Below are positions 6,130 through 58,642 of a stretch of DNA of 64,000 nt, one piece after another (within the stretch, counting starts at the first letter, position 1; every line of letters starts with the position of its first letter). The stretch is from Glandiceps talaboti. Its lineage: Eukaryota > Hemichordata > Enteropneusta > Spengelidae. A program made the position numbers and the translations under genes. Where the stretch lies: contig NC_135563.1 of assembly GCF_964340395.1 (NCBI RefSeq), forward strand, positions 2,492,001-2,556,000, written 5' to 3'. The notes under the pieces were generated by a model. The model saw only the letters and a list, made by a program, of their open reading frames with translations, ran no database searches and was not told the origin of the DNA.

Positions 6130-7069
6130 ATGGTTTCAAGCAAGATGGCGACCTGTGAGTTTGGTGTCGTTTGTGCTCTGCTTCCTTTTTCGATATTAGC
6201 TAGTTTCGGAAACCACAACTTCGTGAAAGTTTGTGTACCCAGTGAATATGACCCACCCACCTTGGAAGACTTGTACATTAAGAAGAATGTTGCAAACACA
6301 AGCTTGTCAGTGCTCGAAAACTTTGTACCATTTCATCACGATAAAATCAAAGGTAGGCCAAGATCAAGAACGTCAACAGCTGTGTCCGCACTTTGGTATT
6401 ATCTTCTATTGTCACTGATATGCAGTGGAGATGTTCACAGTAACCCAGGTCCTGTTAAATGCCCATGTGGCTATTGTTCAAAATGTGTTCGGTCGAATCA
6501 AAGGGGGATTTGCTGCGACACCTGTGATATATGGTATCCCACAAATTGTGTTGGCATATCTGTGACTGAATACAAGCACTTGTCGGAAGATAAAACATCT
6601 GAATGGCATTGCATATCCTGCAGTCTCCCACCTCTGACAGACAGTTTCTTTAAAAGAAGCTGGAGATGGAATACTTGCCTTTGATATAACTGAATTGAAT
6701 GAATCCATGTATGATCCTGTACCCGAACTGGCATTTGCAACAGTGTCACAGAAGGGACTTAAAATTGCCCATCTAAACATAAGAGGAATTCAAGGAAATA
6801 AAGGTTGCAAGATTGATGACATACGTCATCATATGAGATCTCAGCCCTATGACATTCTCTCACTATCTGAGACACTCCTTGACAGCTCCGTCGCCATATC
6901 TGAGATTGTTATACAATATACATGGAAGAGACCGTCCAAACCATGGGGAAGGAGTGTGAGCATACACTTCTAAATCGTTACAAACTGTAAATAGAGAGGA
7001 CTTGCAGATGATTGGTGTTGAATGTTTATGGATTCAACTAGACATCCACAGGTCAAAATCCTGTCCAAT
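6130..7069 (+). pseudogene. CR1-like non-LTR retrotransposon, 5' part (2A-like motif, PHD finger, start of endonuclease)
   Basis: The first open stretch (6130-6684) holds a hydrophobic segment ending in GDVHSNPGP (codons 100-108). It is followed by a PHD-type zinc finger with spaced Cys pairs and a closing WHCISC. A one-base insertion in an A-run near 6650 shifts the frame. The next frame (from about 6650 through 6695-6973) continues into an exonuclease-endonuclease-phosphatase domain with LKIAHLNIRG and the SLSETLLD segment carrying the catalytic Glu. A second frameshift and a stop follow near 6935-6960, but homology continues (AYTSKSLQ ... ECLWIQLDIHRSKSCP) up to 7067. There the reading is broken by a DNA transposon. 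In the family this protein would carry endonuclease and reverse transcriptase for target-primed insertion. The copy is dead: frameshifts, stops, an insertion and no RT domain. Confidence 0.8.
6427..6453 (+). other. 2A-like motif GDVHSNPGP in the retrotransposon ORF
   Basis: The nine codons read G-D-V-H-S-N-P-G-P and directly follow a Leu-rich segment (YYLLLSLICS). The consensus 2A peptide has D-V/I-E-x-N-P-G-P; here His replaces Glu. In CR1-like elements of several marine invertebrates a motif at this position mediates ribosome skipping or acts as a signal sequence. Activity of the His form is not established by the sequence. Confidence 0.7.
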
Positions 7070-11998: not shown

Positions 11999-14900
11999 AT
12001 CATTGTCTATCATTATATCTATCTATCATTATACCTATCTATCATTATACCTATCTATCATTATACCTATTTATTATTATACCTATCTATCATATATCTA
12101 TCATTATACCTATCTATCATTATATCTATCTATCATTATACCTATATATCATTATATCTATCTATTATTATATCTATCTATCATTATACCTATCTATCAT
12201 TATACCTATCTATCATTGTACCTATCTATCATTATATCTATCATTATACCTATATATCATTATATCTATCTATTATTATATCTATCTATCATTATACCTA
12301 TCTATCATTATATCTATCATTATACCTATCTATCAGTATACCTATCTATCATTATACCTATCTATCATTATACCTATCTATCATTATATCTATCTATTTA
12401 TCATTATATCTATCTATCATTATATCTATCTATCAGTATATCTATCATTATATCTATCTATCATTATATCTATCTATCAGTATATCTATCATTATACCTA
12501 TCTATCATTATACCTATCTATCAGTATATCTATCATTATATCAATCTATCATCATACCTATCTATCATTATACCTATCTATCATTATATCTATCTATCAT
12601 TATATCTATCATTATATCTATCTATCATTATATCTATCATTATACCTATCTATCATTATGCCTATCTATCATTATACATATCTATCATTATACCTATCTA
12701 TCATTATATCTATCTATCATTATATCTATCATTATACCTATCTATCATTATACCTATCTATCATTATACCTATCTATCATTATATCTATCTATCATTATA
12801 TCTATCATTATACCTATCTATCATTATACCTATCTATCATTATACCTATCTATCATTATACCTAACTATCATTATATCTATCTATCATTATACCTATCTA
12901 TCATTATATCTATCATTATACCTATTTATCATTATACCTATTTATCATTATACCTATCTATCATTATACCTAACTATCATTATACCTATCTATCATTATA
13001 CCTATCTATCATTATATCTATCATTATACCTATCTATCATTATATCTATCATTATATCTGTCATTATATCTATCATATACCTATCTATCATTATACCTAT
13101 CTATCATTATATCGATTTATCAGTATATCTATCTATCATTATACCTATCTATCATTATATCTATCATTATACCTATCTATCATTATATCTATCATTATAT
13201 CTGTCATTATATCTATCATATACCTATCTATCATTATACCTATCTATCATTATATCGATTTATCATTATACCTATCTATCATTATATCTATCATTATACC
13301 TATCTATCATTATATCTATCATTATACCTATCTGTCATTATATCTATCTATCATTATACCTATCTATCATTATATCTATCTATCATTACATCTATCATTA
13401 TACCTATCTATCATTATGTCTATCATTATACCTATCTATCATTATATCTATCATTATACCTATCTATCATTATATCTATCTATCATTATACCTATCTATC
13501 ATTATATCTATCATTATACCTATCTATCATTATACCTATCTATCATTATATCGATTTATCATTATACCTATCTATCATTATATCTTTCTATCATTATACC
13601 TATCTATCATTATATCTTTCTATCATTATACCTATCTATCATTATACCTATCTATCATTATACCTATCTATCATTATATATATCATTATATCTATCATTA
13701 TACCTATCTATCATTATACCTATCTATTATTATATCTAACTATCATTATATCTATCTATCATTATACCTATCTATCATTATACCTATCTATCATTATACC
13801 TATCTATCATTATAACTATCTATCATTATACCTATCTATCATTATACCTACCTATCATTATACCTATCTATCATTATATCTATCATTATACCTATCATTA
13901 TACCTATCTATCAATATATCTATCTATCATTATACCTATCTATCATTATACCTATCTATCATTATACCTATCTATCATTATACCTATCTATCATTATACC
14001 TATCTATCATTATATCTATCATTATACCTATCTATCATTATATCTATCATTATATCTGTCATTATATCTATCTATCATTATACCTATCTATCATTATATC
14101 TATCTATCATTACATCTATCATTATACCTATCTATCATTATGTCTATCATTATACCTATCTATCATTATATCTATCATTATACCTATCTATCATTATATC
14201 TATCTATCATTATACCTATCTATCATTATATCTATCATTATATCTATCATTATACCTATCTATCATTATACCTATCTATCATTATATCGATTTATCATTA
14301 TACCTATCTATCATTATATCTTTCTATCATTATACCTATCTCTCATTATACCTATCTATAATTATACCTATCTATCAATATATCTATCTATAATTATACC
14401 TATCTATCAATATATCTATCATTATACCTATATATCATTATATCGATTTATCATTATACCTATCTATCATTATATCTATCATTATACCTATCTATCATTA
14501 TATCTATCATTATACCTATCTGTCATTATATCTATCTATCATTATACCTATCAATCATTATACCTATCTATCATTATGTCTATCATTATACCTATCTATC
14601 ATTATATCTATCATTATACCTATCTATCATTATATCTATCTATCATTATACCTATCTATCATTATATCTATCATTATATCTATCATTATACCTATCTATC
14701 ATTATACCTATCTATCATTATATCGATTTATCATTATACCTATCTATCATTATATCTTTCTATCATTATACCTATCTATCATTATACCTATCTATCATTA
14801 TATATATCATTAAATCTATCANNNNNNNNNNNNNNNNNNNNNNNNNNNNNNNNNNNNNNNNNNNNNNNNNNNNNNNNNNNNNNNNNNNNNNNNNNNNNNN

Positions 14901-17900
14901 NNNNNNNNNNNNNNNNNNNNNTCATTATATCTATCTATCATTATATCTATCTATCATTATATCTATCATTATACCTATCTATCATTATACCTATCTATCA
15001 TTATATCTATCTATCCCTATACCTATCTATCAGTATATCTATCTATAGATCATTATATCTATCTATCATTATATCTATCATTATACCTATCTATCATTAT
15101 ACCTATCTATCATTATATCTATCTATCATTATATCTATCTATCATTATATCTATCATTATACCTATCTATCATTATACCTATCTATCATTATATCTATCT
15201 ATCACTATACCTATCTATCAGTATATCTATCTATCATTATATCTATCTATCATTATATCTATCATTATACCTATCTATCATTATATCTATCATTATACCT
15301 ATCTATCATTATACCTATCTATTGTTATATCTATCTATCATTATACCTATCTATCATTATACCTATCTATCATTATATCTATCTATTGTTATATCTATCT
15401 ATCATTATATCTATCTATCATTATACCTATCTATCATTATATCTATCTATCATTATATCTATCATTATACGTATCTATCATTATACCTATCTATCATTAT
15501 ATCTATCTATCATTATATCTATCTATCTATCTATCATTATATCTATCTATTGTTATATCTATCTATCATTATATCTATCTATCATTATACCTATCTATCA
15601 TTATATCTATCTATCATTATATCTATCATTATACGTATCTATCATTATACCTATCTATCATTATATCTATCTATCATTATATCTATCTATCTATCTATCA
15701 TTATATCTATCATTATACCTATCTATCATTATACCTATCTATCATTATATCTATCTATCACTATACCTATCTATCAGTATATCTATCTATCATTATATCT
15801 ATCTATCATTATATCTATCATTATACCTATCTATCATTATATCTATCATTATATCTATCTATCATTATATCTATCATTATACCTATCTATCATTATACCT
15901 ATCTATCATTATATCTATCTATCATTATATCTATCTATCATTATATCTATCATTATACCTATCTATCATTATACCTATCTATCATTATATCTATCTATCA
16001 CTATACCTATCTATCAGTATATCTATCTATCATTATATCTATCTATCATTATATCTATCATTATACCTATCTATCATTATATCTATCATTATACCTATCT
16101 ATCATTATACCTATCTATCATTATATCTATCTATCATTATATCTATCTATCATTATATCTATCATTATACCTATCTATCATTATATCTATCTATCACTAT
16201 ATCTATCTATCACTATACCTATCTATCATTATATCTATCTATCATTATATCTATCTATCATTATATCTATCATTATATCTATCATTATACCTATTTATCA
16301 TTATACCTATCTATCATTATATCTATCTATTGTTATATCTATCTATCATTATACCTATCTATCATTATACCTATCTTTTGTTATACCTATCTACCATTAT
16401 ATCTATCTATCATTATACCTATCTATCATTATACCTATCTATCATTATACCTATTTATCATTATACCTATCTATCATTATACCTATCTATCATTATATCT
16501 ATCATTATACCTATCTATCATTATATCTATCTATCATTATACCTATCTATCATTATATCTATCTATTGTTATATCTATCTATCATTATATCTATCTATCA
16601 TTATACCTATCTATCATTATATCTATCTATCATTATATCTATCATTATACGTATCTATCATTATACCTATCTATCATTATATCTATCTATCATTATATCT
16701 ATCTATCTATCTATCATTATATCTATCATTATACCTATCTATCATTATACCTATCTATCATTATATCTATCTATCACTATACCTATCTATCAGTATATCT
16801 ATCTATCATTATATCTATCTATCATTATATCTATCTATCATTATATCTATCTATCATTATATCTATCATTATACCTATCTATCATTATATCTATCATTAT
16901 ATCTATCTATCATTATATCTATCATTATACCTATCTATCATTATACCTATCTATCATTATATCTATCTATCATTATATCTATCTATCATTATATCTATCA
17001 TTATACCTATCTATCATTATACCTATCTATCATTATATCTATCTATCACTATACCTATCTATCAGTATATCTATCTATCATTATATCTATCTATCATTAT
17101 ATCTATCATTATACCTATCTATCATTATATCTATCATTATACCTATCTATCATTATACCTATCTATCATTATATCTATCTATCATTATATCTATCTATCA
17201 TTATATCTATCATTATACCTATCTATCATTATATCTATCTATCACTATATCTATCTATCACTATACCTATCTATCATTATATCTATCTATCATTATATCT
17301 ATCTATCATTATATCTATCATTATATCTATCATTATACCTATTTATCATTATACCTATCTATCATTATATCTATCTATTGTTATATCTATCTATCATTAT
17401 ACCTATCTATCATTATACCTATCTTTTGTTATACCTATCTACCATTATATCTATCTATCATTATACCTATCTATCATTATACCTATCTATCATTATACCT
17501 ATTTATCATTATACCTATCTATCATTATACCTATCTATCATTATATCTATCATTATACCTATCTATCATTATATCTATCTATCATTATACCTATCTATCA
17601 TTATATCTATCATTATACCTACCTATCATTATATCTATCATTATACCTATCTATCATTATATCTATCATTATACCTATCTATCATTATACCTATCTATCA
17701 TTACATCTATCATTATACCTATCTATCATTATATCTATCTATCAATATATATATCTATCATTATACCTATCTATCATTATATCTATCATTATACCTATTT
17801 ATCATTATACCTATCTATCATTATATCTATCTATTGTTATATCTATCTATCATTATATCTATCTATCATTGTACCTATCTATCATTATATCTATCATTAT

Positions 17901-18205
17901 ACCTATTTATCATTATACCTATCTATCATTATATCTATCTATCATTATACCTATCTATCATTATATCTATCATTATATCTATCGTTATACCTATCTATCA
18001 TTATATCTATCTATTGTTATATCTATCTATCATTATATCTATCTATCATTGTACCTATCTATCATTATATCTATCATTATACCTATCTATCATTATACCT
18101 ATCTATCATTATATCTATCTATCATTATACCTATCTATCATTATATATATCTATCAAGTTATATCTATCTATCATTATATCTATCTATAATTATATCTAT
18201 CTACC
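11999..18205. repeat. 6.2-kb TCTA-derived satellite (12- and 16-bp units)
   Basis: The whole stretch is built from CTATCATTATAC and CTATCTATCATTATAC-like words (12 and 16 bp), mixed with TATATCTATC variants. Rare variants mark higher-order copies: CTTTTG at 16,375 and 17,423, and CTACCATT at 16,391 and 17,439, give a 1,048-bp repeat distance. ATTATGTCTATC recurs at about 13,416, 14,140 and 14,576. The plus strand almost lacks TAA, TAG and TGA, so all three frames stay open for hundreds of codons. Those open frames (Tyr/Ile/Ser/Leu repeats) are artefacts. The true length is unknown because of the internal gap. Confidence 0.97.
14822..14921. other. Assembly gap (100 N)
   Basis: Exactly 100 N, the usual placeholder for a gap of unknown size, within the satellite. 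Sequence on both sides is the same satellite, so the gap is most likely unresolved repeat. Confidence 0.98.
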
Positions 18206-18246: not shown

Positions 18247-18618
18247 GTGGAACTCTTGATAAAAATGAAATTGAAAGAGTTAGATAAATATCTTGATGAG
18301 CGTTATTTACCAAAACAGAGAAAATTAAAAAGAGAAAAATTAGACATAATATCCACTAACATAATAGGAACACTAGAATTTAGATCTAGAAAAATGACTG
18401 CAAATGAAATTAAAACTAATATCATGGAAATGAGTGAAACAGATATTTGTGACTCTGAGACTGAAAGTGACACTTCTGTAATGCATGTTCTAGGCAGTGA
18501 TGGAGACAATTGTGATACTGATAGCTCAGAAAGTTCATGTACTGATGATAACACTGACTGTGATGAAACAAGTCTTGCACATCCTCGCAGAATTGCAGAT
18601 CGATTTATGTTGCATTAA
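18247..18618 (+). pseudogene. C-terminal remnant of an unknown mobile-element ORF, acidic tail
   Basis: A 123-codon frame directly abuts the satellite. It has a basic helical part (KYLDERYLPKQRKLKREKL) followed by an acidic Ser/Asp/Glu-rich tail ending SCTDDNTDCDETS and a short basic end. Just upstream, another frame (SGTLDKNEIERV) reads on sensibly if one base is shifted near 18,284, so the ORF is broken. A related tail (DISDSDCDETSPTQ ...) is encoded inverted at 51,932-52,189, and both are followed by the same poly-C 3' region. Two copies with a shared 3' end mark a repeated element, not a host gene. I do not recognise the family. Confidence 0.5.
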
Positions 18619-21349: not shown

Positions 21350-21358
21350 AAAAAAGAA
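21350..21358. repeat. Left target-site duplication AAAAAAGAA
   Basis: A nine-base direct repeat adjacent to the GGGTGACCC end; the partner is at 26,657-26,665. Confidence 0.85.
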
Positions 21359-24300
21359 GGGTGACCCTAAAACGAATGACAACCTGAATGACGGAAAACG
21401 AATGACAGCATTTCTAGGTGGTAAACAGTGGAATGACACCCTTTTCTACATTCAGTTAGTTGAATGACACCCTCTGCACTGTATGACCAGTGGAATGACA
21501 GCCGCCACTCTATAAAATAAGTGGAATGACAGCATTTTTAATGCTTTAGAACTGGAATGACAGCATTTCTAGGTGGTAAACAGTGGAATGACACCCTTTT
21601 CTACAATCAGTTAGTTGAATGACACACTCTGCACTGTAGAACCACTGGAATGACAGCCGCCACTCTATAAAATAAGTGGAATGACAGCATTTTTAATGCT
21701 TTAGAACTGGAATGACAGCATTTCTAGGTGGTAAACAGTGGAATGACACCCTTTTCTACATTCAGTTAGTTGAATGACACCCTCTGCACTGTAAAACCAC
21801 TGGAATGACAGCCGCCACTCTATAAAATAAGTGGAATGACAGCATTTTCAATGCTTTAGAACTGGAATGACAGCATTTCTAGGTGGTAAACAGTGGAATG
21901 ACACCCTTTTCTACATTCAGTTAGTTGAATGACACCCTCTGCACTATAGAACCACTGGAATGACAGCCGCCACTCTATAAAATAAGTGGAATGACAGCAT
22001 TTTTAATGCTTTGGAACTGGAATGACAGAATTTCTAGTTGGTAAACAGTGGAATGACACCCTTTTCTACAATCAGTTAGTTGAATGACACACTCTGCACT
22101 GTAGAACCACTGGAATGACAGCCGCCACTCTATAAAATAAGTGGAATGACAGCATTTTTAATGCTTTGGAACTGGAATGACAGCATTTCTAGGTGGTAAA
22201 CAGTGGAATGACACCCTTTTCTACATTCAGTTAGTTGAATGACACCCTTTGCACTGTAAAACCAGTGGAATGACAGCCGCCACTCTATAAAATAAGTGGA
22301 ATGACAGCATTTTTAATGCTTTAGAACTGGAATGACAGCATTTCTAGGTGGTAAACAGTGGAATGACACCCTTTTCTACATTCAGTTAGTTGAATGACAC
22401 CCTCTGCACTGTAAAACCACTGGAATGACAGCCGCCACTCTATAAAATAAGTGGAATGACAGCATTTTTAATGCTTTGGAACTGGAATGACAGCATTTCT
22501 AGGTGGTAAACAGTGGAATGACACCCTTTTCTACATTCAGTTAGTTGAATGACACCCTTTGCACTGTAAAACCAGTGGAATGACAGCCGCCACTCTATAA
22601 AATAAGTGGAATGACAGCATTTTTAATGCTTTAGAACTGGAATGACAGCATTTCTAGGTGGTAAACAGTGGAATGACACCCTTTTCTACATTCAGTTAGT
22701 TGAATGACACCCTCTGCACTGTAAAACCACTGGAATGACAGCCGCCACTCTATAAAATAAGTGGAATGACAGCATTTTCAATGCTTTAGAACTGGAATGA
22801 CAGCATTTCTAGGTGGTAAACAGTGGAATGACACCCTTTTCTACATTCAGTTAGTTGAATGACACCCTCTGCACTGTAAAACCACTGGAATGACAGCCGC
22901 CACTCTATAAAATAAGTGGAATGACAGCATTTTCAATGCTTTAGAACTGGAATGACAGCATTTCTAGGTGGTAAACAGTGGAATGACACCCTTTTCTACA
23001 TTCAGTTAGTTGAATGACACACTCTGCACTGTAGAACCACTGGAATGACAGCCGCCACTCTATAAAATAAGTGGAATGACAGCATTTTTAATGCTTTAGA
23101 ACTGGAATGACAGCATTTCTAGGTGGTAAACAGTGGAATGACACCCTTTTCTACATTCAGTTAGTTGAATGACACCCTCTGCACTGTAAAACCACTGGAA
23201 TGACAGCCACCACTCTATAAAATAAGTGGAATGACAGCATTTTCAATGCTTTAGAACTGGAATGACAGCATTTCTAGGTGGTAAACAGTGGAATGACACC
23301 CTTTTCTACATTCAGTTAGTTGAATGACACCCTCTGCACTATAGAACCACTGGAATGACAGCCGCCACTCTATAAAATAAGTGGAATGACAGCATTTTCA
23401 ATGCTTTAGAACTGGAATGACAGCATTTCTAGGTGGTAAACAGTGGAATGACACCCTTTTCTACATTCAGTTAGTTGAATGACACCCTCTGCACTATAGA
23501 ACCACTGGAATGACAGCCGCCACTCTATAAAATAAGTGGAATGACAGCATTTTCAATGCTTTAGAACTGGAATGACAGCATTTCTAGGTGGTAAACAGTG
23601 GAATGACACCCTTTTCTACATTCAGTTAGTTGAATGACACCCTCTGCACTGTAAAACCACTGGAATGACAGCCGCCACTCTATAAAATAAGTGGAATGAC
23701 AGCATTTTCAATGCTTTAGAACTGGAATGACAGCATTTCTAGGTGGTAAACAGTGGAATGACACCCTTTTCTACAATCAGTTAGTTGAATGACACACTCT
23801 GCACTGTAGAACCACTGGAATGACAGCCGCCACTCTATAAAATAAGTGGAATGACAGCATTTTTAATGCTTTACAACTGGAATGACAGCATTTCTAGGTG
23901 GTAAACAGTGGAATGACACCCTTTTCTACATTCAGTTAGTTGAATGACACCCTCTGCACTATAGAACCACTGGAATGACAGCCGCCACTCTATAAAATAA
24001 GTGGAATGACAGCATTTTTAATGCTTTGGAACTGGAATGACAGCATTTCTACGTAGTAAACAGTGTGTCATTCAACTAACTGATTGTAGAAAAGGGTGTC
24101 ATTCCACTGTTTACCACCTAGAAATTCTGTCATTCCAGTTCCAAAGCATTGAAAATGCTGTCATTCCACTTATTTTATAGAGTGGCGGCTGTCATTCCAC
24201 TGGTTCTACAGTGCAGAGGGTGTCATTCAACTAACTGATTGTAGAAAAGGGTGTCATTCCACTTTTTACCACCTAGAAATGCTGTCATTCCAGTTCTAAA

Positions 24301-26656
24301 GCATTGAAAATGCTGTCATATCACTTATTTTATAGAGTGGCGGCTGTCATTCCACTGGTTTTACAGTGCAGAGGGTGTCATTCAACTAACTGATTGTAGA
24401 AAAGGGTGTCATTCCACTGTTTACCACCTAGAAATGCTGTCATTCCAGTTCCAAAGCATTGAAAATGCTGTCATTCCACTTATTTTATAGAGTGGCGGCT
24501 GTCATTCCAGTGGTTCTATAGTGTAGAGGGTGTCATTCAACTAACTGAATGTAGAAAAGGGTGTCATTCCACTGTTTACCACCTAGAAATGCTGTCATTC
24601 CAGTTCTAAAGCATTAAAAATGCTGTCATTCCACTTATTTTATAGAGTGGCGGCTGTCATGCCACTGGTTTTACAGTGCAGAGGGTGTCATTCAACTAAC
24701 TGATTGTAGAAAAGGTTGTCATTCCACTGTTTACCAACTAGAAATTCTGTCATTCCAGTTCCAAAGCATTAAAAATGCTGTTATTCCACTTATTTTATAG
24801 AGTGGCGGCTGTCATTCCACTGGTTTTACAGTGCAGAGGGTGTCATTCAACTAACTGAATGTAGAAAAGGGTGTCATTCCACTGTTTACCAACTAGAAAT
24901 TCTGTCATTCCAGTTCCAAAGCATTAAAAATGCTGTCATTCCACTTATTTTATAGAGTGGCGGCTGTCATTCCAGTGGTTCTATAGTGTAGAGGGTGTCA
25001 TTCAACTAACTGAATGTAGAAAAGGGTGTCATTCCACTGTTTACCACCTAGAAATGCTGTCATTCCAGTTTTAAAGCATTGAAAATGCTGTCATTCCACT
25101 TATTTTATAGAGTGGCGGCTGTCATTCCACTGGTTTTACAGTGCAGAGGGTGTCATTCAACTAACTGAATGTAGAAAAGGGTGTCATTCCACTGTTTACC
25201 ACCTAGAAATGCTGTCATTCCAATTCTAAAGCATTAAAAATGCTGTCATTCCACTTATTTTATAGAGTGGCGGCTGTCATTCCAGTGGTTCTACAGTGCA
25301 GAGTGTGTCATTCAACTAACTGATTGTAGAAAAGGGTGTCATTCCACTGTTTACCACCTAAAAATGCTGTCATTCCAGTTCCAAAGCATTAAAAATGCTG
25401 TCATTCCACTTATTTTATAGAGTGGCGGCTGTCATTCCAGTGGTTCTATAGTGTAGAGGGTGTCATTCAACTAACTGAATGTAGAAAAGGGTGTCATTCC
25501 ACTGTTTACCACCTAGAAATGCTGTCATTCCAGTTCCAAAGCATTGAAAATGCTGTCATTCCACTTATTTTATAGAGTGGTGGCTGTCATTCCACTGGTT
25601 TTACAGTGCAGAGGGTGTCATTCAACTAACTGAATGTAGAAAAGGGTGTCATTCCACTGTTTACCACCTAGAAATGCTGTCATTCCAGTTCCAAAGCAAT
25701 TAAAATGCTGTCATTCCACTTATTTTATAGAGTGGCGGCTGTCATTCCACTAGTTTTACAGTGCAGAGGGTGTCATTCAACTAACTAATTGTAGAAAAGG
25801 GTGTCATTCCACTGTTTACCACCTAGAAATTCTGTCATTCCAGTTCCAAAGCATTAAAAATGCTGTCATTCCACTTATTTTATAGAGTGGCGGCTGTCAT
25901 TCCACTGGTTCTATAGTGTAGAGGGTGTCATTCAACTAACTGAATGTAGAAAAGGGTGTCATTCCACTGTTTACCACCTAGAAATGCTGTCATTCCAGTT
26001 CCAAAGCATTGAAAATGCTGTCATTCCACTTATTTTATAGAGTGGTGGCTGTCATTCCACTGGTTTTACAGTGCAGAGGGTGTCATTCAACTAACTGAAT
26101 GTAGAAAAGGGTGTCATTCCACTGTTTACCACCTAGAAATGCTGTCATTCCAGTTCCAAAGCAATTAAAATGCTGTCATTCCACTTATTTTATAGAGTGG
26201 CGGCTGTCATTCCACTAGTTTTACAGTGCAGAGGGTGTCATTCAACTAACTAATTGTAGAAAAGGGTGTCATTCCACTGTTTACCACCTAGAAATTCTGT
26301 CATTCCAGTTCCAAAGCATTAAAAATGCTGTCATTCCACTTATTTTATAGAGTGGCGGCTGTCATTCCAGTGGTTCTATAGTGTAGAGGGTGTCATTCAA
26401 CTAACTGAATGTAGAAAAGGGTGTCATTCCACTGTTTACCGCCTAGAAATGCTGTCATTCCAGTTCTAAAGCATTGAAAATGCTGTCATTCCACTTATTT
26501 TATAGAGTGGCGGCTGTCATTCCACTGGTTTTACAGTGCAGAGGGTGTCATTCAACTAACTGAATGTAGAAAAGGGTGTCATTCCACTGTTTACCACCTA
26601 GAAATGCTGTCATTCGTTTTCCGTCGTTCAGGTTGTCATTCGTTTTAGGGTCACCC
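21359..26656. mobile_element. Giant foldback element: two inverted arrays of 155-bp units
   Basis: The left arm (21,359 to about 24,065) holds 17 full 155-bp units plus a partial one. Unit starts step by exactly 155 (21,399, 21,554, 21,709, 21,864, 22,019 ... 24,034). At about 24,066 the array switches to its reverse complement and runs to 26,656, with a loop of only about 40 bases. The outer ends are identical inverted copies beginning GGGTGACCCTAAAACGAATG. The element is flanked by the 9-bp direct repeat AAAAAAGAA (21,350-21,358 and 26,657-26,665). No protein is encoded. A 9-bp duplication is typical of Mutator-like and Drosophila FB elements (family knowledge), which suggests mobilisation in trans. 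Confidence 0.92.
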
Positions 26657-26665
26657 AAAAAAGAA
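26657..26665. repeat. Right target-site duplication AAAAAAGAA
   Basis: Immediately follows the inverted GGGTCACCC end of the foldback element; identical to 21,350-21,358. Confidence 0.85.
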
Positions 26666-39800: not shown

Positions 39801-41997
39801 CAGTGTATTTGTGTGTACCGTAGAGGTACTAACAGTGTATTTGTGTGTACCGTAGAGGTACTAACAGTGTATTTGTGTGTACCCTAGAGGTACTAACAGT
39901 GTATTTGTGTGTACCCCAGAGGTGCTAACAGTGTATTTGTGTGTACCGTAGAGGTACTAACAGTGTATTTGTGTGTACCCTAGAGGTACTAACAGTGTAT
40001 TTGTGTGTACCCCAGAGGTGCTAACAGTGTATTTGTGTGTACCCTAGAGGTACTAACAGTGTATTTGTGTGTACCCCAGAGGTACTAACAGTGTATTTGT
40101 GTGTACCCTAGAGGTGCTAACAGTGTATTTGTGTACCCCAGAGGTACTAACAGTGTATTTGTGTACCCTAGAGGTACTAACAGTGTATTTGTGTGTACCC
40201 CAGAGGTACTAACAGTGTATTTGTGTGTACCCTAGAGGTGCTAACAGTGTATTTGTGTGTACCCTAGAGGTACTAACAGTGTATTTGTGTGTACCCTAGA
40301 GGTACTAACAGTGTATTTGTGTGTACCCCAGAGGTACTAACAGTGTATTTGTGTGTACCCCAGAGGTGCTAACAGTGTATTTGTGTGTACCCTAGAGGTA
40401 CTAACAGTGTATTTGTGTGTACCCCAGAGGTGCTAACAGTGTATTTGTGTGTACCCCAGAGGTACTAACAGTGTATTTGTGTGTACCCCAGAGGTGCTAA
40501 CAGTGTATTTGTGTGTACCCTAGAGGTACTAACAGTGTATTTGTGTGTACCCCAGAGGTGCTAACAGTGTATTTGTGTGTACCCCAGAGGTGCTAACAGT
40601 GTATTTGTGTGTACCCCAGAGGTGCTAACAGTGTATTTGTGTGTACCCCAGAGGTACTAACATTGTATTTGTGTGTACCCTAGAGGTACTAACAATGTAT
40701 TTGTGTGTACCCTAGAGGTGCTAACAGTGTATTTGTGTGTACCCTAGAGGTGCTAACAATGTATTTGAACAGAATTGTAACATGTTTACTAATCTATGTT
40801 GCATGTTGCTTTATACTCCTGATATTTCCGTTCGTTCAAGAGATCAAATTTGTGAAAATGTTGTATATTTTGTTCAATGGAATGGAAGTGACATGGGTGT
40901 GAAATCAAAATAGAATTTTAATGATAACTTGTTAAAGTACTAGTCTGGAGTGTCAGTTAGCCTAGTCCAAGGATTTCAACATTTTATAGAAAGAATTTCA
41001 GTTTAATATGGATGATGAAGTCTCGTTATGTGTGAAGGTTTACAAAATTTGCCATTTCATGCCGTATTGACAACATCTGTCAGAATTATATTGGCCATTT
41101 TGAATTGAAAAAACTTGATACAATTTTATTTACCATTTGTGGAATTTGCGCTATGACCATAAATTGTTTGGTGATGTTGTCCAAATTTGACATGTACCGA
41201 TACAATACATGTACATGTATATGTATACCAACAAATGATAGATGGTCTATACTGCACAAATGTACCTGCTTCATATCCAAAATGGAAATGATAACACTGT
41301 AGAAAATTAGCATTGAGTGAATGCCAACAAATACAATTGTATACAGTTCTTGGCTATGGAATTTCTTCAAACTGAAATTGTTGCCTTTTTTTGTACTAAC
41401 TATTCTTGTTTTCTTTCTTTTGCATATTGTCCTTGATTGTTGGAATCTACTTACTATTGAATCTTGTGATTTGGAACTATCATCTCCAAAACAGTCATTA
41501 AACAAAGAATCCAAGTTTACAGCAGTCCTCACAAAGGTGTGATGGACTGTATCAGGACTATATACAGGACCGAAGGCATACGTGCCTTTTATAGAAGTTA
41601 CACAACACAATTGACTATGAATATACCTTTTCAGAGTATACATTTTATGACTTATGAGTTCAGTCAAGAAAAACTGAACCCCAAAAGAGAATATTGCCCA
41701 ATGACTCACATAATGTCTGGTGCCATTGCTGGTGCTGTAGCTGCTGCTATTACAACGCCGCTAGATGTGTGCAAGACATTATTGAATACTCAGGAACGAT
41801 GCATTGTCTCCAGAGTTGAATCAGATACTATCTCTGGTATGATGAATGCATTCCGGACTGTCTACCAATGTTGTGGATTTACAGGGTACTTCCGTGGTGT
41901 CAGCGCAAGAATAATCTATCAGATGCCTTCAACTGCACTATCTTGGTCTGTCTATGAGTTCTTCAAGTTTTTCATCAACGAGCACAAATTATACTAA
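27743..41997 (+). CDS. SLC25A37/SLC25A28-like: Mitoferrin, mitochondrial iron carrier (four exons, complete)
   Basis: The joined exons are 27743-27871, 31328-31547, 38007-38063 and 41495-41997. They give 909 bases, a 302-residue protein plus stop. All introns are GT-AG, with phases 0, 1 and 1. Three mitochondrial-carrier repeats are complete, each with its PxD/ExxK/R signature: PVDCVK (38-43), PIDVIK (133-138) and PLDVCK (224-229). Mitoferrin-specific segments include [49 protein letters not shown] and [17 protein letters not shown]. The His residues linked to iron transport in yeast Mrs3 appear conserved (H33, H91, H185). In the family the protein imports ferrous iron across the inner mitochondrial membrane for haem and iron-sulfur synthesis. 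At 302 residues it lacks the longer N-terminal leader of vertebrate forms. The start is the first ATG of MMLEEED; a second ATG follows at once. It is intact and probably functional. Confidence 0.95.
27872..31327 (+). other. Mitoferrin intron 1
   Basis: A 3,456-bp intron. It holds a poly-C run near 28,354, a (TA)n at about 28,779-28,795 and a TACA/TACG run at about 28,844-28,918. A possible dispersed element lies at about 29,550-30,460; its ends (TCACAGTATTCTCCCTG and CTGGGGAGAACACTGATG) are roughly inverted. A GGTTCCATCCGTCCG fragment lies at about 30,725. No gene is seen within. Confidence 0.7.
28844..28918. repeat. TACA/TACG microsatellite
   Basis: A tetranucleotide run in intron 1, mostly (ACAT)n with an (ACGT)n start. 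Open frames through it (Tyr/Val/Cys/Met or Thr/Tyr/Ile/His) are artefacts. Confidence 0.95.
31328..31547 (+). CDS. SLC25A37/SLC25A28-like: Mitoferrin exon 2
   Basis: Follows the acceptor TTTCTTACAG and begins TRMQ, continuing VK without a shift. It carries the matrix helix and second transmembrane helix ([19 protein letters not shown]). It ends in LAN plus one base before the donor GTAAGT. Confidence 0.95.
31614..32934. repeat. 51-bp minisatellite in mitoferrin intron 2
   Basis: About 27 copies of TATTCCAACCACTGTGTAGG + TACTAACTAAGTGGTGTAGT + CTGTAGTCATG, with shorter 44-bp variants lacking CTGTAGT. Because 51 is divisible by 3, one minus frame stays open as a 17-residue repeat. This is not a gene. 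Each unit carries TACTAAC. Confidence 0.95.
34587..35584. repeat. 27-bp minisatellite in mitoferrin intron 2
   Basis: About 36 copies of CTTGGACACTGCTAAATAAC + GGTGCAT, with GGTGTGT and GGTGGTGT variants. It keeps frames open on both strands (9-residue periodicity), which is an artefact. Confidence 0.95.
37094..37750. repeat. 55-bp minisatellite in mitoferrin intron 2
   Basis: About 11-12 copies built on TATGTCTGTTACCAAGATTC and CCTATGTCTGTTACCAGCTA + GGTTTCCCTATATTG, with some half-units. It ends about 260 bp before exon 3. Confidence 0.93.
38007..38063 (+). CDS. SLC25A37/SLC25A28-like: Mitoferrin exon 3 (57 bases)
   Basis: A very short exon after the acceptor TTGTTCTACAG. It encodes [19 protein letters not shown] in phase 1 and ends at the donor GTAAGA. 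It supplies the start of the second carrier repeat, and without it the signature PIDVIK would be lost. Confidence 0.93.
38064..41494 (+). other. Mitoferrin intron 3
   Basis: A 3,431-bp intron, more than half of it a 32-bp minisatellite. Before that, about 38,735-38,840 holds three copies of a TTTTGGGGGACTCCTCGGTT-like unit. The stretch after 40,770 is unique and shows no gene on the plus strand; the minus-strand frame at 41,086-41,709 is antisense to exon 4. Confidence 0.75.
38898..40764. repeat. 32-bp minisatellite in mitoferrin intron 3
   Basis: About 58 copies of GTGTATTTGTGTGTACCCTA + GAGGTACTAACA, stepping by 32 bp (for example 39,064 and 39,096). Variants include CCCCAG/CCGTAG and GTGCTAAC. 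Each unit holds TACTAAC or TGCTAAC, and a CCYAG about 22 bases downstream. Confidence 0.96.
41495..41997 (+). CDS. SLC25A37/SLC25A28-like: Mitoferrin exon 4 and stop
   Basis: The acceptor CCAAAACAG precedes TC ATT AAA CAA, completing the split Val codon to give [15 protein letters not shown]. The exon holds the rest of repeat 2 and all of repeat 3, ending HKLY and TAA. The first in-exon ATG (41,539) is not a start. An ATTAAA at 42,281 is a possible but weak polyadenylation signal. Confidence 0.95.
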
Positions 41998-53075: not shown

Positions 53076-53081
53076 TATAAT
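53076..53081. repeat. Left target-site duplication TATAAT
   Basis: Directly precedes the TACGGTGG end; the partner is at 58,137-58,142. The sequence is AT-rich, so some chance of coincidence remains. Confidence 0.7.
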
Positions 53082-53099
53082 TACGGTGGACGAGAAGGA

Positions 53100-53500
53100 C
53101 ATTTCCGCGCTCTCAATGATTGGGCGTTCAAAGCAATTTCCGCGCTCTCAATGACAGAGTTCAAAGCAATTTCCGCGCTCTCAATGACTGAGCGTTCAAA
53201 GCAATTTCCGCGCTCTCAATGACTGAGCGTTCAAAGCAATTTCCGCGCTCTCAATGACAGAGTTCAAAGCAATTTCCGCGCTCTCAATGACTGAGCGTTC
53301 AAAGCAATTTCAGCGCTCCCAATGACTGAGCGTTCAAAGCAATTTCCGCGCTCTCAATGACCGGGCGTTCAAAGCAATTTCACCGCTCTCAATGACTGGG
53401 CGTTCAAAGCAATTTCCGCGCTCTCAATTACTGGGCGTTCAAAGCAATTTCCGCGCTCTCAATGAACGAGTTCAAAGCAATTTCACCGCTCTCAGATGTC
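53100..53500. repeat. 35-bp tandem array, left arm
   Basis: About 12 copies (33 or 35 bp) with TTTCCGCGCTCTCAATGA as core. Variants TTTCAGCGCTCCC and TTTCACCGCTCTC also occur in mirror order in the right arm (57,760-58,120). Confidence 0.93.
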
Positions 53501-53881
53501 AGACATTTCCGCAACAGAAACGATTTCTCTGACAGAAGCGATTTCCCAGACGTACAGAAGTGGAATCCCCACAAGTCACGTGTTATTAGTGACCCGGAAG
53601 TACATGTAACTGGTAAAAATTGTGGACACAGTGACGGTGCCTGTGTGTACACATTGTCATTGATAACTACAGTAGGTATTGTCAGAGATAGCTATAGTAA
53701 CAGGTATTGTCACAGATAACTATAGTCACAGGTATTGCATCCATGGCCAGAAGTCATATATTTTGCAGGAAATACATTTTTACATTTAACTCATGCACGT
53801 TTTACATTTTTTAAAACAGAAGTTAGAAATCATTTGTTACATTCTCTGACTGCACGAAATACATTCTAAGACCGGGCGGAC

Positions 53882-55763
53882 GTCTTCGTTAATATCCCGT
53901 CGATCATCGGGCATGACGTGGCACATTAAATCGATAGCCCCACTTTGAGTACGAGGAATTTACACATAGGGTATAATAAACTATCATGTCAGAATACTGG
54001 TTTAATGATATTCTAAGCTCGGCAACCTTGTGTTCATAGTGGTCTGAGGTTTAACACAAACGTATAGTAATGACTATGTTACGTCGATTCACCCAAAATG
54101 TGCTGGAAAGGGGTAGGGGTTTTGTGCGAAGTGCCGTCTTAAGTATTAAGATCAAGGGTCTCGAGCTCTGTAAGTTTTTGTGTGTGTGGAATGTATAGAG
54201 TTTGGGTTTACCGTTTGGATTTGGAAGTCTCAGCAGAGTCATCTTATTTTATTTTACACAGTCTAGTTACGCAGCCGGCCCCTCCCCATCCCCGTCTAGG
54301 TAACAACACAAATATATTTAAACTGTATAACATCGTCGGTATGACATCACAATAAATACATTTGATTGAAAAAATAATGCCGACGATAACTCACTACCTA
54401 AAAACAATTCTTGTATAATGTACAAACAACCGTCACTGTATGGGATGGATGGCTGGTGTCACTTAGTCATGCAATATGCGCCAGAAACGAGGTCCCACCC
54501 CAAACATCTGATTACAAATTTACAATTTATTTGTACATTTAGGACGTCCAAAAGGATATGTTCATATTCCAACGCTATCTGTTACTTGTTGTCTTTGCTT
54601 TCCTTTGATCTTCGCTTTGATATCATTTTTAGTAAACAACCTGCAAACTTCATAGAAACTGTAGATAGTACGAGTAAAAGGTGTCCCTAACTTTCCAGTA
54701 AAACGTTGAAACGTGAAACGTTGTTTGTGGTTTGATTTTGATTGCGTTTCAAAAAACGAAAGTTCGAATTTCGATATCAACACCTAAAACACTAAGTTCC
54801 AAATTCACATGTAATTTCAAATGTTGATTGTTTAAACACGTATTCATGGTTCGAAATTACGTCAGAAACGAATCACATCATATCTGGATAGATTGGGATT
54901 TCACTTGGACGTCGTTAGTCACGCACCTAGTCAGTATGCAGACAGAGTATCGAGGATAGACTTCACGTGTTGTCATCAGAATGTTGAAACAACTATTCCA
55001 ACATTGGTTGCAGTCAGTATATATGAAAGTTATCAAGAAATTGATATTTGTGTAAGATGAAAGGACTATGATGTTGTGATTATTGGTAACAGGACACTAC
55101 ACTACATGACTACGCCCCCAGACAAACAACCCGTAGGATAAATGCCCCCAATCACGCCTACAAATACACATACACTTTCATTTCAAACATGCTGATAAAG
55201 ACTGAAATATTGATAATGAAATGAAATTTTAGAAAAAACGACGTGCGATAAACATGGGATTTGATTTCTAAATAAACAGTTATTAACTCATAAACAGGAC
55301 CACTTTCGACCATGCCCTAGTATGTAATTATCCCACCTGAGGCCTTTCTCCGAGGGCATTTTTTTCGGGGGGGGGTGCCCTAGAACCGTCATTATTATGT
55401 TAAAGAGAAAAAAATAGTGTGACGAACTCGTGGAAAGTACACGAAAAACTCTGATATTTAACACCTAATAAAACACTAGAATAGATTGCCTACGCCGGAA
55501 AGCTAATAAGTGGTAGCGTTAGCAAGCCTTCGATAAGCGTGAAAAACCCTCTCCGTCACACCAAGCTGTTCGATTGACCTTGTGTATGGCAGAACATACA
55601 CTATATAAACTTGAGTACAGACACATTCGCCAAGCCAGCGTCTCTAGACTACGGCACAACCCAAGAAACCTGAAATATCACGACCAACTCGTGAAAATAA
55701 ACGCCTCAACCTCACGGAGGCATACTAGAAAACGTTTCCCTAAAGGAAGAAGTAGGTTTTAAC

Positions 55764-55851
<88 letters not shown>

Positions 55852-56223
55852 AAGAAAAGTGTTGCTATAGCTACCTGACCAAGACTCCACCCCTCAGCAA
55901 CTGACTGGCATATGAAAAGTGTGTTTCGAATAAAACACGGGATATCTAGACCTGAAGTACTGGGAAAAATCAGACGATCCAAATACAGGCACCCGGGGCG
56001 TGACACCCACAAGCTTTCCGCAACAACTATCTGTGACAATACCTGTTACTATAATAGTTATCTCTGATAATATCTGTTACTATAGCTATCTCTGACACTA
56101 CCTGGTACTATAGTTATCCCGGACAATGCCTGTTACTGTTACGGCATTAAATCTCCCAATACTAGAATGTATTTCGTGCAACTCTAGAATGTATTAAATG
56201 CATTTATTACAAGCTCCCTGGAC
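53882..56223. other. Internal part of the second foldback-type element
   Basis: No convincing ORF. A GTGGTCTGAGGTT word lies at about 54,039, a GA microsatellite at 55,764-55,846, and a third set of CTGTTACTATAG repeats at about 56,030-56,140. The 62-codon frame at 55,574-55,762 is basic but unrecognised. Confidence 0.5.
55764..55846. repeat. (GA)n microsatellite
   Basis: About 80 bases of nearly pure GA; the minus frame of Ser-Leu repeats is an artefact. Confidence 0.97.
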
Positions 56224-56274
56224 CGTCCGCCCGGTCTTAGAATGTATTTCGTGCAGTCAGAGAATGTAAAAATA

Positions 56275-57334
56275 GCGCAAATATTGCGTTGCCGCACAAC
56301 TTCATGTTCAGGGCAATGATAGATATATAATTTTTTGAAGATTTAAAGTTGTAACCAAAACAAAATTTTCATACCTAATTTCCATCATCATAATCCAGCC
56401 ATCCTATGTTGGAAGTGTACAAGACAAGTATAGCAACATCCTAATCAAACTTTAAAGGGATGTGTCTACAAGGTTTTGTACTTCTTTATTTTTTTAAATC
56501 AATTTGGAACCAAGTCATACCAATGTAACGGGTTTATCTTTCTTGGTTGTCTTATTGTAATATTGTAAAAGCTAGTTTATATGGGTAGGTGATGAAACAG
56601 CTGTCTTACAATATATTACATAATCCAGTCATAAACCAAACTGGCCATGCTACAGGCTTTACCACCAGAGGAAATAGTAAAGTAAACATTATTTAATTAA
56701 CAATGTACTGTTCTCATATCACTATTAATGAGGACAAATCTACACATTCTCAACAAAGTTAAGCTCAATCTACTGGGTAATTTCAGAGTTGAAGATTTTT
56801 GAGGAAAAGCAATGACAAAGAATAACACTTCTAGAAACATCTCACCAAGTTTCAAACTCATTCACTTAGTATTTTTTGAGATATAAGTTTTTGACCAAAA
56901 TTCACATTTTTACACCTTAATTCCATATCACTCATGGAATCATGGTATGCTTAACATATCTTCGTCCATACATCCCTAAATGCATTTCCATTAAATTTCA
57001 GCCCAATCTGCTCAGTGGTTTTGGAATTATAGATTTTTAACCAAAAAGACACATTTTCAGCCCTAATTTGCATATCACTGATGGAATCATCATGTCATGA
57101 ACAAATCTTACTTTACACCCCCTAAAGAATGTTCCCACCAAATTTCGCACCAATCTGCCCAGTAGTTTCTGAGTTTAAGTTTTTTGACCAAAAATCACAT
57201 TTTTTTTACCCAAATCACACACCTGTGATGCGATCATTTTGATTTGAACAATTTCCCAACTAGACACCCAAGGTAATGTAACCCACCAAATATCATGGCA
57301 ATCGGTTCAGCAGTTTTTGACTTTAAGTTGTTTA

Positions 57335-57391
<57 letters not shown>

Positions 57392-57445
57392 CGGGCGATG
57401 CCTATAGCACTACTGAACCTCAGTTCAGTTGTGCTAAAAAATTAT
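56275..57445. mobile_element. Repeat inserted in the right arm of the second foldback-type element
   Basis: The right arm's homology to the left arm breaks at GAGAATGTAA and resumes at ATTTCTAACTTCTG. The insert contains degenerate ~165-bp tandem blocks (CACCAAATTTC.CACCAATCTG ... AGTTTTTTGACCAAAA ... TTGCATATCACTGATGG), then (CA)n at about 57,341-57,387. It ends with the hairpin AGCACTACTGAAC/GTTCAGTTGTGCT (57,406-57,435) and an A-run. Orientation and A-rich end suggest a non-autonomous retroposon-like or MITE-like repeat. No coding capacity. Confidence 0.55.
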
Positions 57446-58136
57446 TTCTAACTTCTGTTTTAAAAAATGTAAAACGTGCATGAGTTAAATGTAAAAATGT
57501 ATTTCCTGCAAAATATATTACTTCTGGCCATGGATGCAATACCTGTTACTATAGTTATCTGTGACAATACATGTTACTATAGCTATCTCTGACAATACCT
57601 ACTGTAGTTATCAATGACAATGTGTCCACAATTTTTACCAGTTACATGTACTTCCGGGTCACTAATAACACGTGACTTGTGGGGATTCCACTTCTGTACG
57701 TCTGGGAAATCGCTTCTGTCAGAGAAATCGTTTCTGTTGCGGAAATGTCTGACATCTGAGAGCGGTGAAATTGCTTTGAACTCGTTCATTGAGAGCGCGG
57801 AAATTGCTTTGAACGCCCAGTCATTGAGAGCGCGGAAATTGCTTTGAACGCCCAGTCATTGAGAGCGGTGAAATTGCTTTGAACGCCCGGTCATTGAGAG
57901 CGCGGAAATTGCTTTGAACGCTCAGTCATTGGGAGCGCTGAAATTGCTTTGAACGCTCAGTCATTGAGAGCGCGGAAATTGCTTTGAACTCTGTCATTGA
58001 GAGCGCGGAAATTGCTTTGAACGCTCAGTCATTGAGAGCGCGGAAATTGCTTTGAACGCTCAGTCATTGAGAGCGCGGAAATTGCTTTGAACGCCCAATC
58101 ATTGAGAGCGCGGAAATGTCCTTCTCGTCCACCGTA

Positions 58137-58142
58137 TATAAT
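58137..58142. repeat. Right target-site duplication TATAAT
   Basis: Directly follows the CCACCGTA end of the element. Confidence 0.7.
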
Positions 58143-58642
58143 AGTCTTTATTTGTGATTTTATGAGTGTCCATGATTCAACAACTTTGTGCACTGGTTCA
58201 ATTTTGAAGTAAGTATAAATATGGAATAAGTTAATACATGTAGCAACTGCTGGCAAATCTATGTGTTGCTGTATGTGTTTCATCTGTGCGTATTTTTGTT
58301 AGTGGTTTCAGGGGGGGGCCATGAAATAAAAACAAGAAGTCTTGGGGGGGGGGGGGCAGATAATTGATACCAGTTTTTGTAGGGGGGGGGGGGGGCACCA
58401 ATAAAAATCCCTTGCTTCATTAGAAATCCTCTGGCCTCCCCCTGGAAATTAAAAATGTACACTCCCTAATGTTTTTTTAGGCAGAGATATACAGGATAGT
58501 TAAAATTTTATCACAAATTGACCATTGAAATCAGTGAAGAATATCTTAGATCGTATTGTTGTTGAATGTTGTAAATGTGGAGTAGTACATATAAAATTGA
58601 ATAAAAAGTACAAAATGTATTCAGAGAAAAAAAAAACATGTG
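58143..58642. other. G-tract dispersed repeat; no gene
   Basis: About 58,310-58,475 has G-runs of 7-14 bases and ends GGCCTCCCCCTGGAAATTAA + AAATGTACACTCCCTAATG, similar to the end of the poly-C region near 18,750-18,785. Confidence 0.6.
58627..58636 (-). terminator. Pol III terminator of tRNA-Lys
   Basis: Ten consecutive T on the transcribed-sense (minus) strand just downstream of the tRNA 3' end. Confidence 0.85.

Follow-up and report, generated by a model that had tools for sequence, protein, structure and literature searches.

The element at positions 21359-26656 of the window, the 64,000-nucleotide stretch of Glandiceps talaboti DNA analysed here, is most probably a foldback with a deleted interior that belongs to a Mutator-like (MULE) family; being non-autonomous, it would be moved in trans by the transposase of rare full-length relatives. 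The whole element (C16:2513359-2518656) consists of two arrays of a 155-bp unit which face each other and are bounded by inverted tips of 41 bp. The SWIM and C48 domains, a MULE match that is weak but well placed, and the 9-bp duplications speak for a Mutator/FB-like source, as the sequence-only reading had proposed. The mobilisation in trans that it also proposed is supported by larger relatives which carry coding DNA between or beside the arms. The MULE type of the transposase is partly established.

Structure of the element and its family in the genome

TRF analysis of the window reproduced the proposed foldback coordinates and the facing 155-bp arrays, with 17.2 copies at 21400-24065 and 16.5 copies at 24065-26615. 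The target-site duplication AAAAAAGAA, which has no strand, is present on both sides (21350-21358 and 26657-26665). The window alone would be compatible with a 10-bp duplication, AAAAAAGAAG; this was rejected, as the longest exact duplication is 9 bp in the 24 perfect pairs among 28 other pairs of tips, which fix the length. The left tip (21359-21399, forward strand) starts with GGGTGACCC and contains GAATGAC motifs spaced 12 and 14 bases. The right tip (26616-26656, reverse strand) is inverted and differs from the left one at 1 of 51 bases, so that the two are not identical, as had been claimed.

The left arm (21400-24063, forward strand) comprises about 17.2 units with one GAATGACA per 31 bases, and the right arm (24064-26615, reverse strand) about 16.5 units. 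The foldback had been called near-perfect; the two arms are about 96–97% alike. A spacer of about 40 bases between them does not exist. The arrays abut near 24063, in a central junction without strand (24035-24073) which has a 21-base core. At the junction the left arm ends 31 bases into the unit and the right arm 76 bases (17 and 74 by a stricter rule), and the apparent 40 bases arise from approximately this phase difference.

We searched the host genome (590 Mb) for other copies. The 20-base tip has 213 exact matches and its reversed control none, which places the element beyond chance and agrees with its earlier interpretation as a mobile element rather than a chance inverted satellite. When at most three mismatches were allowed, a 26-base tip pattern gave 316 matches, again with none for the control. 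Among 100 tips listed of the 213, all opposed pairs not more than 8 kb apart were evaluated (28 pairs). The 9-bp duplication is perfect in 24 of these, has one mismatch in two and two mismatches in one, and is absent from one. The 24 perfect duplications represent 23 distinct sequences, one being common to L030 and L031. Three longer pairs (15.0, 16.2 and 27.3 kb, the first and last with 5,000 N inside each) all have a perfect 9-bp duplication. In three small copies the second tip has diverged; among these, L041 and L048 carry a perfect 9-bp duplication and L043 lacks one. An empty site, for which a search had also been suggested, was partly seen, but the match is inexact and leaves 5 bp unaccounted for.

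Helitrons, which lack both target duplications and inverted ends, were ruled out by the 9-bp duplications and the inverted tips. Duplications of 8–11 bp characterise the MULE superfamily, and the family studied here falls within this range. Muta1 is also described as making 8- or 9-bp duplications (PMC5225508).

Larger relatives and their genes

Several copies have in common a middle region of about 3.3 kb with the same borders between array and middle. This middle is also present in the 27.3-kb copy on C8, which contains 140 exact motifs in its left and 262 in its right array. The C8 copy has a 422-residue frame with an Ulp1/C48 protease domain (PF02902, 2e-15). A PHD-like end of this gene is weak (PF00628, 14.6 bits at a cut-off of 24), and the gene runs into the 5,000-N gap (C8:22162725-22167724). 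To the left of this gap, the C8 interior gave no Pfam match in its three forward frames. By eye, a fragment resembling a LINE and a nested element that has inverted ends were also recognised in the interior.

A second copy of the C48 gene (97%) is located at C7:14141215, 5.5 kb inside the tip at C7:14135734; this copy is known from one tip and the gene region. The two genes have the same orientation relative to a tip. Upstream of the C7 gene is a SWIM finger (PF04434, 20.7 bits at a cut-off of 19.6), a domain which is common in MULE groups though not universal. A MULE match at C7:14139847-14140131 covers profile positions 2-97 of 99 and has the position and strand expected of a putative transposase domain; its 25.4 bits are below the Pfam cut-off of 27.6, its E value for the genome is 0.008 and the smaller part of its letters was read. 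Within the SWIM part, the frame changes at a short tandem duplication. As the C8 gene ends in the gap and the C7 copy has this frame change, no intact transposase can be presented; of the full-length relatives for which a search had been suggested, coding DNA was found between the arms or adjoining them, and an intact enzyme gene was not.

The C48 protein had no match at E 0.001 among 5.8 billion proteins. PF21056 has 13 matches in the host genome, none of them at the C7 or C8 gene. Stronger MULE matches number 31 in the genome, and the 20 on C1-C7 are all, by eye, more than 20 kb away from the tips listed. Two further loci were rejected as sources of the enzyme. L049, a MULE-C48-PHD gene of 778 residues with a minisatellite upstream, has neither GAATGACA nor a tip, no inverted array within 9.5 kb and no useful similarity to the C48 gene; L050 has a single GAATGACA and no tip.

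It is also conceivable, though we consider it unlikely, that an unrelated transposase moves the family, such as a P-like enzyme of the kind known from Galileo, and that the SWIM/C48 gene is carried along as a nested passenger. Galileo differs in its P-superfamily THAP transposase and in a shorter target duplication. It resembles our family in its long ends with internal tandem repeats, which are described as holding transposase-binding sites (footprint and EMSA; PMC3688188), and foldback ends arose in several superfamilies according to the same source. The nested sequences and the lack of an intact transposase among those read would fit such a passenger; a foreign MULE could conceivably be nested in the C7 copy. 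Against this stand the MULE-like duplications (24 of 28 pairs), the occurrence of the C48 gene at two loci in one orientation to the tip, and the SWIM and MULE matches directly upstream of it at C7.

Repeat arms and comparison with known systems

The unit length of 155 bp had been correctly recognised, but not its substructure: each unit consists of five 31-bp repeats starting with GAATGACA. Their order, 1-2-3-4-5, is kept in 3401 of 3405 neighbouring steps, when only repeats with an exact motif 28–34 bases apart are scored. The 31-bp step continues across the 155-bp blocks without separators. The mean share of minor alleles is 0.4% within the motif and 3.2% in the rest of the unit (rank test, p 1.2e-4, the units not being independent). 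Variable columns were not significantly rarer in the motif (0 of 40) than elsewhere (9 of 115; Fisher p 0.11). The arms look like arrays of transposase-binding sites, a role which we infer for the motif.

Long MULE ends have been discussed as giving rise to hairpin RNA and to siRNA (PMC6446971), and the long arms could have been kept by selection for a hairpin or double-stranded RNA, in host silencing or self-regulation, instead of transposase binding. We regard this as improbable, since a hairpin requires neither a constant motif nor a maintained 31-bp phase, and both are found.

A close architectural likeness is to Drosophila FB, which is described as having inverted arms of blocks with five distinct 27–31-bp repeats each, a 9-bp duplication, a middle region and block numbers varying between the sides (PMC7642927). 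FB blocks end in CTC, whereas the 31-bp steps found here have no CTC separators; FB has end sequences of 467–479 bp, in contrast to our 41-bp tips, and differs further in that a transposase-like gene is tied to the Glandiceps foldback family. A paper cited in PMC7642927 calls FB-NOF non-autonomous in its title. The MULE-related Rehavkus is reported with a 9-bp duplication, a minisatellite and a PHD finger in its transposase (PMC6446971), to be compared with our PHD-like end below the cut-off. The 9-bp duplication and the minisatellite are features of our family too; in it, unlike Rehavkus, the arrays are inverted and on both sides. The Mutator/foldback element Tm1 of root-knot nematodes is described as having composite ends that contain tandem repeats, and duplications of mostly 9 bp; many of its copies lack coding capacity, and one kind of copy has a Phantom-type MULE transposase (PMC3169594). 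Its repeat is about 14 bp long and its asymmetric outer motifs 7 bp, instead of 31 × 5, and it has FLYWCH instead of SWIM and C48. Tetris, a non-autonomous foldback, likewise has 8–10-bp duplications and arms in which the arrays grow, but it has a 220-bp repeat, and no transposase was found for it (PMC4079207).

Central junctions and history of the array-only copies

Among 33 sequences searched, which include L031 and L036, the 21-base core of the window junction occurs in one other copy, L024. In the junction and unit counts, L031 (a duplicate of L030) and L036 (middle present) were left out. The junctions are identical in L018, L021, L026 and L039/40, with L014 differing by one base; further groups are L016, L022 and L023; L027 and L033; and the window copy with L024, one base apart. 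Within each group the members occupy separate genomic sites with differing target duplications, indicating that array-only elements moved as such. Unit types are also common within the first three groups. As L027 has unit types in common with L028 and L013 despite unlike junctions, sharing of units is by itself no marker of descent.

Microhomology at the junctions showed no overall excess (Mann-Whitney p 0.69; 25 junctions, junction-spanning units kept out of the reference set). An overlap of at least 2 was found in 12 of 25 (p 0.23) and of at least 4 in 7 of 25, compared with 12.7% in controls (p 0.03). This is not convincing, and we do not claim microhomology.

In the window copy, units of the same number were no closer across the arms than in random pairing (p = 0.33, 10,000 permutations), no unit type is common to both arms (11 and 13 types), and a 3-unit (465-bp) higher order is restricted to the right arm. 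An inverted satellite or assembly artefact is therefore hardly credible: inverted arrays do assemble poorly, and some run into long N stretches (L037, L047), but the arms are not mirrored in register, 9-bp duplications occur at many sites and shared junctions at separate ones. Only 13 of 21 copies have arms which resemble each other more than they resemble the units of the remaining copies, which indicates no strong homogenisation between arms.

For the favoured MULE foldback, the candidate transposase from rare full-length relatives would recognise the tips and, we infer, also the GAATGACA motifs phased at 31 bp. The element would be excised and inserted at a staggered 9-bp cut, in a cut-and-paste manner. 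Pieced together from two degraded copies, a full-length element would run from a tip and an array through the MULE/SWIM/C48/PHD-like gene and the middle to the second array and tip. Loss of the interior would have joined the two arrays, and the resulting array-only elements would afterwards have been mobilised themselves. Each arm may lengthen and shorten independently by whole 155-bp units, probably through unequal exchange.

Foldback elements lead to inversions and instability, and the mobilising enzyme is seldom known. Here, one genome contains a graded series, from foldbacks made of arrays only, through copies that have the 3.3-kb middle, to a 27-kb copy in which a C48 gene is found, accompanied by a candidate MULE-type gene. 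The five-by-31 block together with the 9-bp duplication could tentatively be seen as an ancient and functional arrangement of one MULE branch, common to Drosophila FB, in which a SWIM/Ulp1/PHD-like transposase loads on sites three helical turns apart. The recurrence of five repeats of about 31 bp per block with a 9-bp duplication allows a direct test of the site spacing and of a common origin with FB. If the arrangement proves to be of this kind, the Glandiceps family would reveal the enzyme lacking in FB-type elements, and also how array-only foldbacks derive from a 27-kb coding element.

Structure of the foldback element

The element at window positions 21359–26656 consists of two oppositely oriented arrays of a 155-bp unit, with about 17.2 copies on the left and about 16.5 on the right, enclosed by 41-bp inverted tips beginning GGGTGACCC. 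The facing arrays and the sequence duplicated on both sides, proposed in the sequence-only reading, were recovered at these coordinates; the target duplication outside the tips is AAAAAAGAA. Two details of that reading had to be corrected: the arrays adjoin without the supposed spacer of about 40 bases, and the tips, described as identical, differ at 1 of 51 bases. The arms are about 96–97% alike, and no stop-to-stop frame of at least 110 codons occurs in the element.

The 155-bp unit is composed of five repeats of 31 bp (mean likeness of the five consensus repeats 59% versus 26% when shuffled), each consensus starting with GAATGACA. With the tips counted, the left side has 87 exact motifs and the right side 81. 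Their spacing is 31 bases in the arrays, apart from three 62-base steps in the right array, where a motif is altered, and 12 and 14 bases inside the tip.

A folded read or a fresh inversion of a whole arm should leave unit n of one arm matching unit n of the other, and this pairing is absent (p = 0.33). The two arms have no unit types in common (11 and 13 types), and a 3-unit order is present in the right arm only. The element is a genuine inverted structure. Long N runs start in the arrays or interior of L037, L047 and L059, stretches elsewhere in the genome (5,000 N each in L037 and L059; the run in L047 is truncated where its stretch ends); such elements probably break this assembly.

The window contains a second, unrelated foldback (53076–58143) with 35-bp arrays, arms of about 700 bp, a 3.6-kb middle and tips TACGGTGGACGAGAAGG. 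It is flanked on either side by TATAAT, by eye a possible 6-bp duplication. Its 27-base tip has 40 genome matches (19 + 21; control 0), forming 14 opposed pairs 3.0–5.2 kb apart, one 0.46 kb and two about 31 kb apart. Further features are an array of a 16-bp unit that spans 6.2 kb and is interrupted by a 100-N gap (12006–18203), a long frame resembling a Ty3-type retroelement polyprotein by eye (60757–63999), a frame that looks by eye like the first one of a LINE and weakly matches PHD (6130–6970), and a mitochondrial carrier match (41470–41994).

Genomic copies and turnover of the arms

The search for other copies by their tips, proposed from the sequence alone, was productive: in 590 Mb (47 contigs, with the window at C16:2492001–2556000) a 20-base tip gave 213 exact matches (reversed control 0), and a 26-base pattern with up to three mismatches gave 316 (control 0). 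Among the first 100 listed of the 213 matches, 28 opposed pairs lie no more than 8 kb apart, delimiting elements of 447 to 7,625 bp. All 28 sequences were examined. The 9-bp duplication is perfect in 24; two others have one mismatch, one has two (in a short repeat) and one has no duplication. Three more widely spaced pairs, at 15.0, 16.2 and 27.3 kb, likewise have a perfect duplication; two of them are among the matches listed for the 20-base tip and one comes from the 26-base pattern. The 15.0- and 27.3-kb lengths each count 5,000 N, and the 16.2-kb element is arrays throughout. An empty site, also anticipated, was found in part: the joined flanks of copy L027 match two element-free sites, L048:3748–4000 and window 51613–51481 (78%), but only approximately, because the junction leaves 5 bp unexplained.

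Two copies are atypical. L015, with +,−,+,− blocks and no duplication, was probably rearranged between two elements. L042 is a probable old relative: its left arm is typical, its interior resembles a LINE by eye, and its right side has expanded from a 31-bp repeat that has diverged.

The central junctions vary, with 25 distinct sequences in 31 copies. Identical junctions unite L018, L021, L026 and L039/40 (L014 is off by one base); L016, L022 and L023; and L027 and L033. Members of each group lie at different places with different duplications, so array-only elements moved in that form. Within each of the three groups, members share unit types, and those of the first also share runs of units. 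L027 has even more in common with L028 and L013, which have other junctions, than with its own group; therefore, junctions and arms do not always travel together. The window junction recurs, one base off, in L024 only (33 sequences searched), where 4 bases are missing immediately beside it; the arms are otherwise turned over, with one common unit type, present in other copies too. Arms gain entire units block by block, an example being L039/40, and the repeat order 1-2-3-4-5 is kept in 3401 of 3405 scored neighbouring repeats (neighbours with unchanged motif).

Large relatives and a candidate enzyme gene

A middle of about 3.3 kb is common to the larger relatives L036 and L037/38. A 931-base piece of it occurs at 90% or above at no fewer than 10 loci, itself counted (40 of 346 candidates scored). 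Four middle loci were examined, in stretches ending before the second tips. Arrays flank the middle on each side in L052, L053 and L054, whose right border is also that of L036; L036, L038, L052 and L053 agree at the left border, which is altered in L054. In L055, seen on one side, the right border differs. Judged by frame length, the middle shows no transposase. In L036, a nested element (about 1357–2896) has inverted ends of about 40 bp (GGAGCCGTCATTATTTACGG...) by eye and a frame with KVKELDKYL, similar by eye to a stretch in the frame at window 18247–18615.

The 27.3-kb copy on contig C8 (duplication TTATGGCGG; 140 exact motifs left, 262 right) contains the middle and, before it and after the 5,000-N gap, a 422-codon frame with a Ulp1/C48 protease domain (2e-15), ending in a cysteine-rich PHD-like stretch (weak match, 14.6 bits versus a cut-off of 24). 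Elsewhere in the genome this gene has a single further full copy (97%), at C7:14141215–14142471, as well as broken pieces (66–76%) on C16 near 17.86 Mb. The C7 gene lies 5.5 kb inside a tip (C7:14135734) on the same strand, a coincidence we estimate at about 0.4% from 213 tips per 590 Mb. The 600 bases before it encode a SWIM finger, preceded by a match to nearly the whole MULE domain (C7:14139847–14140131; 25.4 bits; E = 0.008 for the whole genome). With 14 of the 45 genomic MULE matches between E 0.001 and 10, we put the probability of a chance match on this strand of this 1.4-kb stretch on the order of 1e-5, and predict a MULE domain here with moderate confidence. Comparison with tips covered the 20 of 31 stronger matches on C1–C7; none is near a tip among the matches listed. 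The expected full-length relatives with a transposase are represented by parts, namely the C48 gene, the SWIM finger and the candidate MULE match; the relatives examined in this genome yielded no intact autonomous copy. Elsewhere, L049 (C7:2093000–2099000) has a 778-aa frame with MULE and PHD domains, C48 just below cut-off, a SWIM-like motif by eye and a minisatellite immediately upstream; it looks Rehavkus-like.

Proposed mobilization and affinities

These parts and the relatives suggest that the tips are acted on by a MULE-type transposase, which rare full-length copies would supply. The interior was perhaps lost through incomplete repair after excision, a route of interior loss in other transposons; the junction microhomology expected under it did not emerge from the 31 copies analysed. 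Within the unit, the GAATGACA motif varies least (mean minor-allele share 0.4% versus 3.2%; rank test p = 1.2e-4 on 690 units, which are not independent). Because three helical turns take up about 31 bp, putative sites would all face one way. Tandem repeats in Galileo ends are reported to contain transposase-binding sites, and the same report suggests specificity from such arrays, an idea it calls untested for Foldback and Phantom elements (PMC3688188).

Drosophila FB is described with mirrored blocks of five distinct 27–31-bp repeats, 9-bp duplications and a middle region (PMC7642927). The design is the same here, whereas separators and ends differ; the likeness noted is one of design, and the family is not filed as FB. 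Rehavkus, reported to have a 9-bp duplication, a minisatellite and a PHD finger (PMC6446971), is also near in design. The foldbacks Tm1 (PMC3169594) and Tetris (PMC4079207) were placed in Mutator by their authors. Titles and abstract openings from part of the foldback and Rehavkus literature gave no account of this family, a weak negative. The window element is best regarded as a foldback, non-autonomous and with FB-like 5 × 31 arms, that belongs to a MULE-type family. It is a known kind of element in an unusually informative form, with large relatives and a candidate enzyme.
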